Below, in pieces: positions 16,171 to 23,278 of a DNA stretch of 23,389 bases (position 1 is the first letter of the stretch; each line of letters begins with the position of its first letter). The stretch covers positions 1-23,389 of the IMG/VR virus record IMGVR_UViG_3300042507_000109; one strand, given 5' to 3'. A program made the position numbers and the translations under genes. The notes beneath the pieces are model-generated. The model was not told the DNA's origin, made no database searches, and was given only the letters and a program-made list of their open reading frames with translations. The DNA comes from a virus.

Positions 16171-17609
16171 TGGCTAATATTATCTTTCCGCAAAGCCCAT
16201 TTTTAGATCCTATGGGCAGACCTGCAAGAGAATGGACGCAATGGTTGCAAAACCCTGACGTTCAAACCCTTACAGCAGCGACGCTTAATGTGACAAACGT
16301 AGTTTTGGATTTGCCGTTAGATGTTCAGTATGGTGGAACAGGCTTATCAACAATTCCTACAGACGGTCAATTATTGATCGGTAATGGTACAGATTACACT
16401 TTAAGCACATTAACGGCGGGTACTGGTTTAACGATTACTAATGCCGCTGGATCAATTACGCCTAGAATTACAAACACAGGTGTAATTGCGGGTGCTTACG
16501 GCTCTGCATCGTCTGTTACGACTTTGACGGTCAACGCTCAAGGGCAATTGACGGTAGCGGGTAACGTAGCGATAGCGATTGCTGCTTCACAAATTACTAG
16601 CGGTACATTGCCTGTAGTGCGTGGCGGCACAGGTCTAGCGTCTTACACCATTGGCGATATTATCTTTGCTAGCGGCACAACAGCGTTATCTAGTTTGCCT
16701 GACGTAGCTACTGGTAACGCACTTATATCCGGTGGCGTAGGTGTCGCACCTAGCTACGGCAAGATTGGTCTGACTACTCATGTGTCGGGTGTTTTGCCTA
16801 TTGCAAACGGTGGCACAAACATTTCAACGTATGCTGTCGGTGACATACTTTATTGCAGCGCAACAAACGTATTGTCTAAGTTGCCTAAGCCAACAGATAG
16901 TTCATATTTGGCAATGACTTCAGCGGGTGTGCCTAGCTGGAAGAATCCAAAATACGGTACGTTTTACAACACAACGACTGAAACCGTTGGCATTATCAAT
17001 ACGGCGTATCCACTTAATTTTGATACAACAGACTTAAGTAATGGCGTAACGGTTGCAACGACTGCTGCGGTGGTAACGGGCAGCATTGCTCTATTTGTGT
17101 TGACTGTCACAGCGGTCACAAGCGGCACACTGTCGATTGGACAAGTAATTAGCGGAACGGGCGTGACTGTTGGAACTCGAATTGTTGCGTTTGTATCTGG
17201 TTCTGGCGGTGCGGGAACTTATACCGTTGATAAATCACAAACTGTTTTAAGCACAACGATTTCAGCAACTAAGCAATCAAGATTAACGGTAGCGGCTGAT
17301 GGGGTGTATAACTTTCAATTTTCTTGCCAACTTGATAAATCAAGTGGTTCTGCTAAAAGTGTTTATATATGGCCTCGTATTAATGATGTTGATGTAACTA
17401 ACTCAGCAACAGAAGTTACGTTAGCTGGCTCAAATGCTGCGACTGTTGCGGCATGGAACTTTGTTTATAACTTGTCGGCTAATAGTTATTTTGAACTAAT
17501 GTGGTCTGCGGAAGATACGGGTTGCATTATGCCCGCATCGGCGGCGGCTGCACCAGTTCCTGCAATACCAGCAATTATTATGACTGTGACGGACAACATT
17601 AGCGTATGA
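16170..17609 (+). CDS. Long tail fibre with GGTG repeats and C1q-like tip, at the needle position
   Basis: This is a 479-residue protein. The N-terminus ([21 protein letters not shown], residues 6-26) is a common virion-attachment segment. Shaft repeats follow: YGGTGLS (54-60), [19 protein letters not shown] (151-169) and [19 protein letters not shown] (213-231), with a spacing of about 62 residues between the last two. The C-terminus ([17 protein letters not shown], 378-394, on to [11 protein letters not shown]) resembles C1q/TNF-like jelly-roll tips. A foreign beta domain (302-366) interrupts that tip between [17 protein letters not shown] and [16 protein letters not shown]. It occupies the place of P22 gp26 (needle) but is not a coiled-coil needle, so it may replace it with a fibre. 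Confidence 0.78.
16320..16940 (+). repeat. Degenerate GGTG shaft repeats in the long fibre
   Basis: Residues 51-81, 149-210 and 211-257 each open with GGTG or GGTN and continue with a G(D/Q)xL(L/I) strand and an LS.LP turn. The last two copies align over about 47 residues with a 62-residue spacing; the first is more divergent. Confidence 0.65.
17073..17267 (+). repeat. Inserted beta domain, copy 2 (in long fibre)
   Basis: Residues 302-366 of the fibre match residues 79-146 of the gp4-like protein through [28 protein letters not shown] and [16 protein letters not shown]. It splits a jelly-roll-like tip domain whose two parts read as continuous if the insert is removed. Confidence 0.85.
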
Positions 17610-17971
17610 GCGCACTATTTATGATCTACAAATCTGTAGAAAATAGATTGCCATTTGGATTTGATAAGTTTAGTGAAGCGGTATCTGATTGGGAAATAAT
17701 CCCTGTAATACAACGGGGCAAGTTATTTGGCGGCGTAATGGTTAAAGGCAACGAAATCCACGTTGGATTTGCTGAAAAGCCTACGGCAAGTATTCGAGGA
17801 AATATTAAAGCGGTATTAAAGCCTTTGTTTGAAAAGCATGGTTTTGTAGTGACAACGGTTAAAAAAGACAATATAAACGGCTTGAATTTTTGTAAACGGC
17901 TTGGATTTGTTGAGTTTGGGTCAGATAGCGATAAAATCTTATTGAAGTGTGACGGGAGTCATTATGTTTAA
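17606..17971 (+). CDS. GNAT-like protein at the P22 gp14 position
   Basis: This is a 121-residue protein. A strand pair ([17 protein letters not shown], residues 39-55), a helix with [16 protein letters not shown] (64-79) and [15 protein letters not shown] (91-105) follow the order of GCN5-type acetyltransferases, the last being the usual NxxAxxxYxKxGF end motif. Catalytic acetyl-CoA loop residues are not clear. P22 gene 14, in the same place, is a small head-assembly protein whose family (DUF2824, as I recall) may be related to this fold. It overlaps the fibre by four bases (ATGA) and the next gene by eight. It could be a structural assembly factor that reuses the fold or a true acetyltransferase. 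Confidence 0.6.
17955..17958 (+). promoter_or_regulatory. Ribosome binding site fixing the gp7-like start
   Basis: GGAG five bases before the ATG at 17964 selects that start over an in-frame GTG at 17949 and an ATG at 18003 that lacks a good site. It lies inside the end of the GNAT-like gene. Confidence 0.6.
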
Positions 17972-19247
17972 AGTTTACTTGAGCCGCAGACAGACAAAAG
18001 CAATGTCTAGCGAATTTCCTATTGGTGATCCAACAGGCGGCGCAGCTTACCGAGAGATGCGTGACCCAGCAACAGCAATGGCTGCGTCAGCTGGTGCAAA
18101 CGTTGTTGGTTCAATTATTGGTGGCGAAGCGTCTAAATCTGCGGCTAAAACTCAATCTAGGGCAGCGGCTAATGCTTCAGCAGCGCAACAGCGCATTGCA
18201 ACCCAAGCAATTAGCGGTATGCAAAAGATGCAAGCGCAGCAGATTATTGAATTGCAAAACGCTCAAACTGATGCAATCAATCGTGGTCAAAATGATCGTG
18301 CGTCTGCTATTCAATTACTTGTCGATCAACGCACAGACGCTTTAGCTCGCATTTACGGATCGAAAGACGATGCTTTAAAAGTAATCAATACTCAACGTGA
18401 AGGTGCATTAGAAACGTTCCAACCATATATGCAGGTTGGTCAACAAGGCGTTGGTGCAATTACTGAGAAACTGCCTTACTTTCAAGAAACGTTCGGGCCA
18501 GAACAATTTAGAGCAAATTTAGACCCTGGCTACGAGTTTATGAAACAGCAGGGTTTGGGCGCAATTCGTCAGGGCATGAACGTTGGGGGCGGTGGTTCTA
18601 ACATTGATCGAGCAGCAACTAAGTTTGCCGAAGATTACGCCAATACTGGATACCAAAACGCTTACAACCGTTTTACAGGTCAACAGCAAAACATCTATAA
18701 CCGTTTAGCAGGCATTGCAGGAATCGGGCAAACGGCTACGGGTACAGCGGCACAAACAGGTCTAGGCTATGGGCAACTTGGCGCACAGACAGGGCTAGGT
18801 TACGAATCCCTTGGGGCGCAAACGGGGCTTGGTTACGGCACGGCAATTGCAAACACAGGGTTAGGCTACGATCAAATGATTGGTAATCAGCAACTTGGTT
18901 ACGGCAGCACAATGGCTAACTTTAACCAAGGTGTAGGCGCAAACATTTCTAATCTAGCTACTGGCATGGGTACGGCTACAGCACAAGGCATCACAGGTCA
19001 GGCTGCTGCACAAGCTGCTGGTGATGTTGGTCAAGCTAATATTTACGGCGGTGCGTTAGGCAACCTTGGGCAACTCGGCACACAGTACGCATATTTTCAA
19101 ACGCCAGGTATTCAAAAAGCATTAGGGTTAGGTCAATACGCACCACAAACAGGCTCAACGCCGATAAGCGGGGCTAGTCCAACTGGCTTACCTATGGGTG
19201 GGGGCAGCGGCATTATGGTAGGCGGCTCGCCTGTTCAATTAGCATAA
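17964..19247 (+). CDS. gp7-position DNA ejection protein with 11-residue repeats
   Basis: This is a 427-residue protein. An Ala/Gly-rich segment (ATAMAASAGANVVGSIIGGEA, about 36-56) could insert in membrane. It is followed by a long helix (about 57-157) showing an 11-residue periodicity with (A/Q)(I/L) pairs at residues 82-83, 93-94, 104-105, 115-116, 126-127, 137-138 and 148-149. A middle helical region (about 160-258) precedes five Gly/Tyr 11-mers (263-317) and a Gly/Gln-rich low-complexity tail ending in GGGSG...GGSPVQLA. Order and size fit the P22 ejection protein gp7 (229 residues), but this one is nearly twice as long. Ejection proteins leave the head with or before the DNA and make a conduit through the envelope. 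Identity by sequence is not visible, so the name rests on position and features. Confidence 0.65.
   Translation: MFKVYLSRRQTKAMSSEFPIGDPTGGAAYREMRDPATAMAASAGANVVGSIIGGEASKSAAKTQSRAAANASAAQQRIATQAISGMQKMQAQQIIELQNAQTDAINRGQNDRASAIQLLVDQRTDALARIYGSKDDALKVINTQREGALETFQPYMQVGQQGVGAITEKLPYFQETFGPEQFRANLDPGYEFMKQQGLGAIRQGMNVGGGGSNIDRAATKFAEDYANTGYQNAYNRFTGQQQNIYNRLAGIAGIGQTATGTAAQTGLGYGQLGAQTGLGYESLGAQTGLGYGTAIANTGLGYDQMIGNQQLGYGSTMANFNQGVGANISNLATGMGTATAQGITGQAAAQAAGDVGQANIYGGALGNLGQLGTQYAYFQTPGIQKALGLGQYAPQTGSTPISGASPTGLPMGGGSGIMVGGSPVQLA
18204..18434 (+). repeat. Helical 11-residue (hendecad) periodicity
   Basis: Residues 81-157 of the gp7-like protein divide into seven successive 11-mers with small/aliphatic residues at positions 2-3, for example QAISGMQKMQA, DAINRGQNDRA, SAIQLLVDQRT, DALARIYGSKD and DALKVINTQRE. 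The DNA shows no obvious 33-base repeat, so the pattern is at protein level. Confidence 0.7.
18750..18914 (+). repeat. Five Gly/Tyr 11-mer tandem repeats (33 bases each)
   Basis: Residues 263-317 are AQTGLGYGQLG, AQTGLGYESLG, AQTGLGYGTAI, ANTGLGYDQMI and GNQQLGYGSTM. Codons vary at synonymous positions between copies (GGTCTAGGCTAT, GGGCTAGGTTAC, GGGCTTGGTTAC, GGGTTAGGCTAC), so the repeat is old and kept at the protein level. A weak sixth copy follows. Confidence 0.9.
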
Positions 19248-19256
19248 AGGAAAATC

Positions 19257-20954
19257 ATGGCTGATAACACCATTGCGCTGCAAGTACGACCAATGCCGCA
19301 AACCAATATTTTGACTCCAATTACAGACGTAATGAATTTGGGTCGTGCTGCTGTCGGATTGCAGCGTGAAACTGAAACCTTACCCTATGCAATTGAAACT
19401 GCAAAGGGTGTGGCATCACAAGCCACAACTGGCGCAGAAAGCTCGATCTTTAAGTTAAATAACGAGCAATCACAATTAGCGTTAAATATTGCAGGCGGTC
19501 TTGCAAACGACGATGCAATTATCAATGCAGGCAAGAATCCTATGGCTGCAATGAATACGATCTTGCAAGCAAAAGCACGGATGCTTGCTCAAGGTATTCC
19601 AGCGCACATCGTAGAAGCCAACACAGCACCTTTGATTACTAATCTAGTGTCTAACCCTAGTGGGTTTTTGCAGACGCTTAAAAACGTGATTCAAGGTGGT
19701 CTTGGCGCACAAGGCCAACAGCAATTGCAAACCCCGCAACTTACTGAAGCAGGCGGCGCACCTGCAACATTCCAAAGCGGCACAGGTACATTACGGACTG
19801 CGCCTATTGCGCCTGCTGGATCAGCACCTAGCTCGACTTCTGGCCCTGCTGCACCATTTACCGGACAACCAACAGCGCAACCAACAGAACCACCACCACA
19901 AGTCATGCCACAAGCAGGCGGCGATTTATACGCAAAAGGTATGCCTACGGGCAAGCCTGGCACATTCTTTGGTGATAACGGTCAGATTGTTGACGCAAGC
20001 GGTAAAGTCGTATTTGATGCTGCGGTGCGGGATTCGTCAGGTCAAGTTGTTGACATGAAAGCCATGCCGCAAGAATACGACCCAATGAATAAGCCGATTG
20101 ATAAAACTCTTGGTACGGTTCAATCTTTCCCTGTTGCGCCACCGCCAAAAATGCAAGGCGCACCGTTACCACCAGCAGCACCGCAAACAGGCGTAAGTGC
20201 GGATCAAATGGCACAGCCTGCATCAACTGGCGCAGGCTTTAAATTATCTTATCCGGTTCGCAAAGCAGGCGAAGCTCGACAAGTGTTGGCTTCAGAAGTT
20301 GCAGATGAAGCGGCAGGTAATTTGTACCGCAATTCGTTAATTAAGAATCAAGGCAACTTGGTCACTAACCGTAGAAACCTTGAAGAAGTTATTTCTGAAG
20401 CAGACAAGGTTGAAAAGAATCTTAGTTTGCTTGGATTCAAAGTTGATAACGCAGGATTTTTAGGCGCAGGCGCACGAAAACTAAACGAATTTTTTGGTAC
20501 GGAAACAGGCATTACGCTAAAACAACTTAACAAAGACTTGGCTAACGTTGCAATTTCAAACATCACGGCAGCTGGTGGGTCAATGGATACCGTGGCAGGT
20601 CAACAATTAACCCGAATGGCTAACGGCGATGAAACTTACCCACCTGTTATTTTGAAAGATATTGCACGGCGAGCAATGGCAGATATGACAAACCTAGATA
20701 TGCAAGCCCGTGGCGCACAGGAATTCTCTCGCAAGTTTGGTGCTGCTAACTTAAATGATTACCGTCAGCAATGGGCTAAAAACGCTGATTCAAGATTGTT
20801 TGAATTAGTTAACATTGAAAACAGTTCAATGAATTCAGATCAACGGCAAGCGGCACGGGTAAAGTTGTTTAAAGGCATGAACGATAAGCAAAAATCTGAA
20901 ATGGCTCAGAAATTGCGTAACTTGCAAAAGTTAAGCACAACCGGACAATTGTGA
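19257..20954 (+). CDS. gp20-position putative DNA ejection protein
   Basis: This is a 565-residue protein with an AAAGGAAAAT site before the ATG. The N-terminal 150 residues are helical (NILTPITDVMNLGRAAVGLQ early; LANDDAIINAGKNPMAAMN later). Residues about 153-330 are a Pro/Gln/Ala/Thr-rich flexible linker. The C-terminal 230 residues are again helical (NRRNLEEVISEADKVEKNLS and LNDYRQQWAKNADSRLFEL). The order of helix, disordered linker and helix suits a protein that must unfold to pass through the narrow portal. P22 gp20 is 471 residues. I see no enzyme motif. The role is assigned from position between the gp7- and gp16-like genes. Confidence 0.6.
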   Translation: MADNTIALQVRPMPQTNILTPITDVMNLGRAAVGLQRETETLPYAIETAKGVASQATTGAESSIFKLNNEQSQLALNIAGGLANDDAIINAGKNPMAAMNTILQAKARMLAQGIPAHIVEANTAPLITNLVSNPSGFLQTLKNVIQGGLGAQGQQQLQTPQLTEAGGAPATFQSGTGTLRTAPIAPAGSAPSSTSGPAAPFTGQPTAQPTEPPPQVMPQAGGDLYAKGMPTGKPGTFFGDNGQIVDASGKVVFDAAVRDSSGQVVDMKAMPQEYDPMNKPIDKTLGTVQSFPVAPPPKMQGAPLPPAAPQTGVSADQMAQPASTGAGFKLSYPVRKAGEARQVLASEVADEAAGNLYRNSLIKNQGNLVTNRRNLEEVISEADKVEKNLSLLGFKVDNAGFLGAGARKLNEFFGTETGITLKQLNKDLANVAISNITAAGGSMDTVAGQQLTRMANGDETYPPVILKDIARRAMADMTNLDMQARGAQEFSRKFGAANLNDYRQQWAKNADSRLFELVNIENSSMNSDQRQAARVKLFKGMNDKQKSEMAQKLRNLQKLSTTGQL

Positions 20955-23278
20955 TGGAATTTCAAAGCGCAATAGATTTTCTCTCAGGGTCAAAAAAGCC
21001 AAAAGAAAAAGATTCAACGGGCTTTGATTCCGCATTGCAATTTTTAGAAGGTTTGCAAAGGCCACCTGTTGCGCCATTAACGCCACAACAAGCACAATCA
21101 CAATTTGCCCAAATCCCGTTTCAGCCATCAGCACAACCTGCACCGCAACAAATGCAACAGCTAGCACCGCAAGGTAACGCTGTGCAACGTGCAATTGCGC
21201 CTGCTGCGTCATTTCTAGATGTAACTCTTGGCGGTCTCGCACCTGGCATTATTGAACCTGTGACTTACGCAGGATCACGAGCATTTGGTGCGACTCCAGA
21301 ACAAGCTACACAATCATCACAAGCGGCTGCTGCGCCGTTTGTAGACCCGTTTGGCAAGGTTCTAGGTGTGTCTAATTTGCCACAGTACAAAGGCGAAGCA
21401 TCTCGTCAACTTATGGAATTTATTGGCACAAACATGGGGAAGGGTGCGGAATACATTTCGCAGAAAACCGGATACCCTGTTGCTGACATTCAAAACATGA
21501 TGGGTACGCTAGTTGCTGGTGGCGGCACAGCAGCTGGTCGAGCGTTAGCGGGTCGTGGCGTAAGCCCTGCTGTTACGCAAATGCAAGATCAATATGCGGC
21601 ATCATTGAAAGCTAGACAGCCACGCATTGAACCTACGATGACACCTGAAGGTGCGGTTACGCCTGAGACGGTTGCAGCGGTAACACCTGAAGCACCTGTA
21701 CCACCAGTAGCGGCTGCGGCTATGCCAGAAGTGCCAATGGCTACGCCTGAAGGTCAATTGGTTGTGTCAAAAGCACCAGGCATCGAGGTGTCGTACATTA
21801 AGCCCACGCCTGACGTACCGAAAGACACGCCATTTATTACTAGCCCGTTGCAAGAAAATATTGCACCGACTTCAACTACTACGCCACGACCAACAATTGA
21901 TAATCCGTTTACTGAGCCAATGTACGCCAAGACGGGTAAATTGCCTGTTGAGGAACAGGTATATCGTGTTGAAACGGTTAAAGAGTTAGGCGTACCGACT
22001 ATTCGGGAAGGTACTAAAACAGGCGATGGGTTCAAGACCGCTGACGAATACGTTACGGCAAAGACTAGTGGCCCGAACAAAGATTTGTTTAATCAACAGA
22101 TTGCTACCGAACAACAGGCGTTGCGAAACTACGCAAACGGTATTGTCGAGAAAACAGGCGGCAGCGTTGGTTTAGATGAAAACGCTCTCTACAACCGTGG
22201 GCAAGCAATTGCACAACCGTTTGATGCGTTTAAAACGCTATTGACTCAGCAAATGCGTCAAGCGTATCAAGCAGCAGGGGAAGTTGCACAAGGTGCGCCA
22301 GCTGTTATGCCTGACACATTTCAAAAGTTTCTAAGCACTAATTCCAATTTTGTTGTTAACGACAGTTTCAAATCTTTGCGAAACGGGATTAAGTCACATT
22401 TGACTGAGCAAGGCTTGATTAACAAAGACGGTAGCATTAAGGCAATGACCGTCGATCAGTCAGAATTGTTAAGACAATACATTAATTCAAACTGGAATCC
22501 TGACCGATCAAGAATTATTCACAAGTTGACCGATTCAATTGATAACGATGTGACACGAGTTGCTGGTACTGACATTTATGAATCAGCTCGTGGTATTCGT
22601 ACCAAAATGGCAAACTTGTTAGAAGATCCAGTAGGCGTGTCTAAGATCATGGATTACGATCCCAAGACCCCTATCAATCGTTCTACGGCTTTCCCTGATA
22701 TTCCTAAAGCTGTGGAAAAGATGACACCGGATCAACAGGCGCATCTGGTTAAAGTCTTGCAAGATATGCCACCTGAATTGCAGCCACAAGCTCAAAAGGC
22801 TATTGCTGAAATTAAGTCACAATTCGCAAATCGAATTGCAGAGGTTGGTGGTAAAGGTGAATTTTGGAACGCACCTGCTGTTAGCAAGTATTTGCGGGAT
22901 AACAACAGATCGTTGCGTATTCTAACTGGTGATCCACAAATGGCTAGATCGTTAACTGTCTTGAATGACGGTGGACACTTTTTGCGTATGGATAACGGCT
23001 ACAAAGGTGCTGCAATCCAGTTTAAAAATATGTACGATAATCCGTTAATTAGCGGCACAACTCAAGCATTGGGCGGTGCAATTGGCGGTGGTATTGCATA
23101 TGGAATGGGTGGCGGCGGTGCTGTAGGGGCTGCGGCTGCGCCTTTTGGTGCGGCGTATGGTAGAAGTGTTGCTGCAGGTAAATTAGAACGTGCTGCGGCT
23201 CGTAGTGCGGCTAGGAAAGGACAAGAAAGTTTACGACCTATTTCTGAAGTTTTAACCTCCTTACAGAAGAAAAAATAA
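20954..23278 (+). CDS. gp16-position putative DNA ejection protein with glycine-zipper C-terminus
   Basis: This is a 774-residue protein; P22 gp16 is 609. A short helical start (MEFQSAIDFLSGSK) is followed by Pro/Gln/Ala linker (about 30-75), an Ala/Gly-rich segment around 75-205 with LVAGGGTAAGRALAGRG, a second Pro/Thr/Val-rich linker (about 212-315), and a long helical region to about 690. Residues 698-741 hold a glycine-zipper-like hydrophobic stretch (GGAIGGGIAYGMGGGGAVG), typical of membrane-inserting segments, before a basic tail ending in LQKKK. P22 gp16 is needed in the infected cell for DNA entry and can act on membranes. Identity is inferred from position, size and these features. 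ATG at 20954 overlaps the previous TGA; an adjacent GTG (20951) could also serve. The stop overlaps the next start (TAATG). Confidence 0.65.
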   Translation: MEFQSAIDFLSGSKKPKEKDSTGFDSALQFLEGLQRPPVAPLTPQQAQSQFAQIPFQPSAQPAPQQMQQLAPQGNAVQRAIAPAASFLDVTLGGLAPGIIEPVTYAGSRAFGATPEQATQSSQAAAAPFVDPFGKVLGVSNLPQYKGEASRQLMEFIGTNMGKGAEYISQKTGYPVADIQNMMGTLVAGGGTAAGRALAGRGVSPAVTQMQDQYAASLKARQPRIEPTMTPEGAVTPETVAAVTPEAPVPPVAAAAMPEVPMATPEGQLVVSKAPGIEVSYIKPTPDVPKDTPFITSPLQENIAPTSTTTPRPTIDNPFTEPMYAKTGKLPVEEQVYRVETVKELGVPTIREGTKTGDGFKTADEYVTAKTSGPNKDLFNQQIATEQQALRNYANGIVEKTGGSVGLDENALYNRGQAIAQPFDAFKTLLTQQMRQAYQAAGEVAQGAPAVMPDTFQKFLSTNSNFVVNDSFKSLRNGIKSHLTEQGLINKDGSIKAMTVDQSELLRQYINSNWNPDRSRIIHKLTDSIDNDVTRVAGTDIYESARGIRTKMANLLEDPVGVSKIMDYDPKTPINRSTAFPDIPKAVEKMTPDQQAHLVKVLQDMPPELQPQAQKAIAEIKSQFANRIAEVGGKGEFWNAPAVSKYLRDNNRSLRILTGDPQMARSLTVLNDGGHFLRMDNGYKGAAIQFKNMYDNPLISGTTQALGGAIGGGIAYGMGGGGAVGAAAAPFGAAYGRSVAAGKLERAAARSAARKGQESLRPISEVLTSLQKKK

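Follow-up and report, generated by a model that had tools for sequence, protein, structure and literature searches.

What fold does an 11-residue periodicity build in the first of three phage ejection genes, a single helix or one part of a larger structure? The window, referring to the whole 23.4-kb virus record analysed here, encodes P22-type portal, coat and stabilisation families. Downstream of the portal and coat genes, after the head-closure/tail genes and before two more large ORFs, lies the ORF in question on the + strand (17964..19247), which encodes 427 aa plus a stop, with an alternative GTG start possible upstream at 17949. In this P22-type head/tail module it opens a run of three ejection genes, in the 7-20-16 order also seen in P22.

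Locus and family assignment

The ORF was assigned as a gp7-position DNA-ejection protein by gene order and by a weak match to PHROG 598 'DNA ejection' (E=1.3e-5) covering residues 137-302. Relatives match this family at 1e-4 to 2e-59, including those about 42% identical (6e-15 to 2e-23) and Vibrio phage VvAW1 (2e-59), while P22 gp7 matches it at 2e-95. The Pfam family P22_gp7 (PF25688), which P22 gp7 itself matches at 9e-129, gave no match to the window protein up to E=1; direct hhalign of the family against P22 gp7 also failed, and the connection goes via PHROG 598. A reading made earlier from the sequence alone (hereafter the sequence-only reading) had named this a gp7-position ejection protein, a call backed by the gene order and by PHROG 598, whose members include P22 gp7.

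The next two ORFs on the + strand were placed by gene order. The first (19257..20954, 565 aa) has the P22 gp20 / T7 gp15 position and no family match, and the second (20951..23278, 775 aa) has the P22 gp16 / T7 gp16 position and no family match above the cut-off. Just upstream of the gp7-position ORF, a 121-aa ORF (17606-17971) without a Pfam/PHROG match occupies the position of an annotated acetyltransferase in phages PBR31 and Pam1.

The protein begins with an N-terminal leader (residues 1-38; 17964..18077, +) of the type hKxYLSRxQT..MS..PIGDPTGG.AYRE..DP.TA, which is found in only some relatives and missing in many. It forms a separate block, 65-81% identical in PBR31 and MW202520, and occurs at 3001-3120 of L014 and 4995-5110 of L011; its presence in the otherwise diverged Xanthomonas phage PBR31 gives it the appearance of a mobile module. 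The annotation of P22 gp7 includes a 20-aa leader that host OpdA cleaves. The distal N-arm end carries a small/hydrophobic segment (residues 37-54; 18072..18125, +) that is kept in nearly all relatives.

Two further architectures were seen in the family. An intramolecular chaperone (endosialidase-type) domain, unexpected for an ejection protein, is annotated on L036 778-1689 (Pseudomonas phage PAE2) and on the BFVD entries A0A6J5MX04 and A0A6J5KNM1. L068, L079, L080, L067, L081 and L201 are proteins of 575-754 or more aa that carry a long N-terminal region fused ahead of the ejection core.

Hendecad register of the N arm

The N arm (residues 60-153; 18141..18422, +) was delimited by periodicity, arm-length comparison and a predicted helix. 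It contains most of the originally flagged stretch (residues 81-157; 18204..18434, +), in frame in the ORF, which reads as seven units: QAISGMQKMQA/QQIIELQNAQT/DAINRGQNDRA/SAIQLLVDQRT/DALARIYGSKD/DALKVINTQRE/GALETFQPYMQ. The array stops at the conserved core (P154), and the last of these units overlaps the conserved PYM motif by 4 residues. The sequence-only reading had described seven 11-residue units with small or aliphatic residues at positions 2 and 3, and this was confirmed: A, I, L or V occupies 13 of the 14 sites, with Q93 as the exception, and when these 77 residues were shuffled 20,000 times the pattern was never equalled, even in the best phase (p<5e-5). Period 11 scored 0.93, far above all other periods from 6 to 19.

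Fourier analysis on four scales placed the helix-range hydrophobicity peak at 3.62-3.68 residues, close to the 11/3 that had been predicted rather than 3.5. The power at 3.667 against 3.5 was 8.6 vs 1.0 on a binary scale and 5.6 vs 0.5 on the Kyte-Doolittle scale, and the hendecad signal was weaker on the Eisenberg scale (p=0.09). The N arms of the homologues L131, L137, L138 and L042 peak at 3.64-3.68 (L042 at 3.76 on one scale) with no 3.5 excess. A heptad helix was ruled out, there being no 3.5 peak in any long arm. Loss of the register in homologues was also looked for; the 11-residue register is kept and lengths shift in steps of 11. The claim that the DNA is not repeated held as well, with no DNA repeat found under the array and no tandem repeats in the DNA of the whole gene. 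Judged by the 11/3 periodicity, the geometry of the arms would be right-handed or straight.

A second array and matched arm lengths

Beyond the conserved core (residues 154-255; 18423..18728, +), a segment of about 100 aa that holds most of the invariant columns, lies a second 11-residue array, the C arm (residues ~256-353; 18729..19022, +), with units of the AQTGLGYGQLG type near the core and a length that co-varies 1:1 with that of the N arm. The single hendecad helix of the sequence-only reading was thus upheld as a helix but incomplete as a description, since this co-varying array about 100 residues downstream makes a hairpin the probable fold.

The co-variation is visible in an alignment of close relatives (>80% identity), in which N-array lengths are offset by +11, 0 or -22 residues and the C array shows identical shifts in the same proteins. 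Relatives were collected from bacterial genomes, phage records and IMG/VR. Arm lengths were taken as distances between conserved profile-HMM anchors, with A60 and P154 bounding the N arm and G255 and G353 bounding the C arm. In a first pass, both arms changed equally in 38/38 distinct sequences, always by multiples of 11. With re-trained anchors, equal multiple-of-11 changes were found in 53/53 distinct relatives with both anchors above 8 bits, a threshold picked after the scores were seen, below which anchors are unreliable and agreement fell to 28/52. Upon addition of further loci, arms were equal in 64/65 distinct relatives and changes were multiples of 11 in all 65.

Per arm, 0, 2, 3, 4, 6 or 7 extra units were observed, with no half-way intermediates among relatives with good anchors, and the window protein has six units per arm more than the shortest relatives. 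Most measured relatives are in the state of 0 extra units, which leaves about 17 longer sequences from three clades to carry the case; the short forms include L119, Xanthomonas phage PBR31 and Rhodoferax phage P26218. The sole unequal case, L167 from an Acinetobacter prophage, was scored as 2/4 units, its N anchor lying on an internal repeat. Counted manually, its N arm has about 4 units plus 3 residues vs 4 in the C arm, an ambiguous result, and arm matching is ambiguous throughout this Acinetobacter prophage branch (L167, L171, L175). The C-terminal arm of these three prophage proteins is a clear 11-residue array, GSANANANGVW/NSANAQANGLL/GAANANASGIV.

Indels within the core of the same proteins served as an internal control. 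Most of them do not fit the 11-residue step: sizes of -1, 2, 17, 20, 27, 29 and 89 occur, alongside 11 and 22 in three proteins. Quantisation is thus a property of the arms. Unit number was not tracked by the length of the portal (692-719 aa in open frames where complete) or by that of the gp20-position (414-567 aa) and gp16-position (665-1056 aa) proteins, and a ruler matched to other virion proteins was accordingly dropped as an explanation.

Insertion positions and the probable hairpin

Trees of the core alone indicate that the unit number changed at least 9 times. For pairs differing in unit number, the best gap position was found in each arm separately, and the distances from the core (N/C arm) were 5/8, 6/8, 7/21, 51/48, 43/41, 8/8, 8/13, 7/8, 29/31 and 31/31. 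Not all of these pairs are independent; grouping them by clade leaves about six independent events, and in five of these the two arms agree to within 5 residues. Same-distance placement was the unconstrained optimum in all pairs except L001/L010. Mirrored placement, as expected of parallel arms, was clearly worse for insertions near the core and indistinguishable for those in mid-arm. As read from these alignments, the simplest structure demanding matched placement would be an antiparallel hairpin with its turn inside the core and its arms in register.

The P22 gp7 / T7 gp14-type ejection protein is therefore probably an antiparallel alpha-helical hairpin, with the turn in the conserved core and two hendecad arms side by side. 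The NVGGGGSN loop (core residues 206-213) is likely to be the turn, and the two arms would be in contact with each other. Eleven residues make three full helical turns. For this reason, a whole unit gained or lost in both arms at one level would keep the packing face toward the partner, while a change in one arm alone would disrupt the packing, and such a change was not seen.

The core helix of three Vibrio phage proteins (L028, L029, L033) and of PBR31 (L014) has about 11 or 22 extra residues of the YADQYAKESDR type, possibly a third site of hendecad-sized insertions.

Structure prediction was mostly of low confidence for this protein. Two AF2 models, one for the window protein (35 sequences; pLDDT 54, pTM 0.33) and one built for a short relative from 46 sequences (pLDDT 56, pTM 0.29), both left the arms undocked, although the N arm of the window protein was modelled as helices 54-131 and 134-174, with a pLDDT of 80-92 over residues 80-145. 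Residues 140-253 of the low-confidence model aligned weakly with post-ejection T7 gp14, one of the nearest folds to the core model (8e4g_a, Z 5.8; 9jz0_0, Z 5.7; rmsd 4.2 A over 107-112 residues), both chains being taken as gp14 from entry titles, chain lengths and residue numbering together with PMC11784390. This match stands among unrelated helical chains at Z 5.7-5.8, with a Foldseek E of 6.9, below the meaningful level for helical models. Foldseek and VIA searches with the models returned chemoreceptors, coiled coils and T7 gp14, all below that level. Sequence searches of solved structures in the PDB gave nothing relevant, with no link to T7 gp14, and hhalign gave a probability of 0.1% for homology with T7 gp14. 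If the gp14 match is right, the model would have the two arms prolong the open ends of a gp14-type hairpin. The matched-arm series of 0 to 7 extra units constrains the fold through evolution where the AF2 models do not.

The same matching would be obtained if the arms paired between neighbouring ring subunits, or each with a third partner, their lengths being coupled only indirectly, a reading of fairly low probability. The undocked arms of the monomer models and the action of ejection proteins as oligomers would suit pairing between subunits, although the core-matched insertion positions need only adjacency, which arises most simply from one chain turning at the core. T7 gp14 is bridged by gp6.7 in both states (PMC11784390), which would also suit this reading; against it, neither the portal nor the other two ejection proteins follow arm length in their own lengths.

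A proposed ring of hairpins and the length of the channel

While the hairpin is supported by evolution, we infer a channel role and its geometry. By analogy with ejected gp14, the hairpins may be aligned in a ring. Most likely, the protein would be ejected first, refold and assemble as a ring of hairpins prolonging the tail channel. An envelope-crossing tube or rod is plausible by analogy with T7 gp14, DEV gp73 and the phiX174 H tube. Arm length would then set the reach of the channel across the surface layer or envelope, and each paired hendecad would lengthen a gp14/gp7-type envelope channel by about 1.65 nm; the six extra units of the window protein correspond to about 10 nm more rod (11 x 0.15 nm x 6). 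That channel length is set by paired hendecads in discrete 1.65-nm steps, related phages tuning the reach of the outer conduit to their hosts' surface layer, is a tentative proposal with somewhat less than an even chance. As the portal and the other ejection proteins do not scale with the arms, a fit of arm length to the thickness of the host envelope or surface layer is only a guess. The series supplies natural length variants for asking whether channel length matters.

Alternatively, the rod may act inside the virion, packed round the portal barrel and not in the envelope, as the gp14 helices of mature T7 wind round the portal barrel (PMC11784390). This location is considered unlikely, given that portal length does not track unit number. 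No high-resolution envelope arrangement of P22-type ejection proteins was found in the literature.

Probable helicity of the C arm

In the proposed hairpin the C arm, like the N arm, is helical. In the window protein, the C arm contains 23% glycine, has a pLDDT of about 40 and shows a hydrophobicity period of 5.5 (=11/2) rather than 3.67, all of which would suit a glycine-rich non-helical repeat, with a helical rod formed by the N arm only. Against this, the C arms of L131, L137 and L138 show a periodicity of 3.66-3.70, and both arms of these three proteins peak at 3.64-3.70 with no 3.5 excess. Furthermore, arms matched residue for residue should also rise equally per residue, which would make both of them helical. 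A non-helical C arm is hence improbable, and that of the window protein is presumably helical.

Neutral growth of low-complexity tandem repeats by slippage, with equal lengths arising by chance or as an alignment artefact, would fit the Ala/Gln/Gly-rich, repeat-like sequence, chiefly the AQTGLGYGQLG of the C arm, but is strongly disfavoured and very improbable, as the gene has no DNA tandem repeats and its N arm no DNA repeats of any kind, equal changes at two sites about 100 codons apart occur in 64/65 well-anchored relatives and can be seen by eye among the closest, insertion positions match, and well-anchored intermediates are lacking.

Comparison with known systems

P22 gp7 (PF25688, PHROG 598) shares with the window protein its gene position, PHROG family, an N-terminal Ala-rich helix followed by a P[FY] motif and the general layout, and resembles the form without extra units. 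It differs in its length (229 aa vs 427) and in having no long hendecad arms, and the window protein does not match PF25688.

T7 gp14 (internal virion protein B), also encoded by the first of three ejection genes, is the functional counterpart. In the DNA-ejected state it forms two antiparallel helices, and six copies of the protein extend the tail channel at the outer membrane (PMC11784390). It has 196 aa, showed no clear hendecad period when tested and has no sequence link to the window protein. Proteins of the gp14 type are described as the size-conserved member of the ejection trio, with size variation <30% (PMC8954989), in contrast to the 0 to 7 extra units per arm found here. The Schitovirus protein gp73 of Pseudomonas phage DEV is a gp14-like pore in the outer membrane whose channel is lined by a long helix (PMC10925440).

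Hendecads in a DNA conduit are known from phiX174 H, a DNA pilot protein whose tube is built of Gln/Asn/Arg-rich hendecad helices of the QKEIAEMQNET type (PMC7354561). The likeness was judged on composition and period; this unrelated phage uses one helix per subunit vs two matched arms, with only three hendecads followed by heptads. Searches of the open-access literature turned up no paper that connects hendecads with podovirus ejection proteins. Relative to that literature, hendecad-quantised, matched-arm variation in a gp7/gp14-position ejection protein is new, while symmetric hairpin indels and phage hendecads were already known.

A parallel for the mode of variation is found in the antiparallel cytoplasmic hairpins of bacterial chemoreceptors, for which symmetric indels in both arms, built of heptads, are described in a passage of PMC5907407 citing Alexander and Zhulin. 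These signalling proteins are non-homologous to the ejection protein and use heptads rather than hendecads, yet the ejection protein behaves like them in its equal, quantised and mostly position-matched length changes in both arms, and the matched arms described here are the hendecad counterpart of the chemoreceptor heptad rule.
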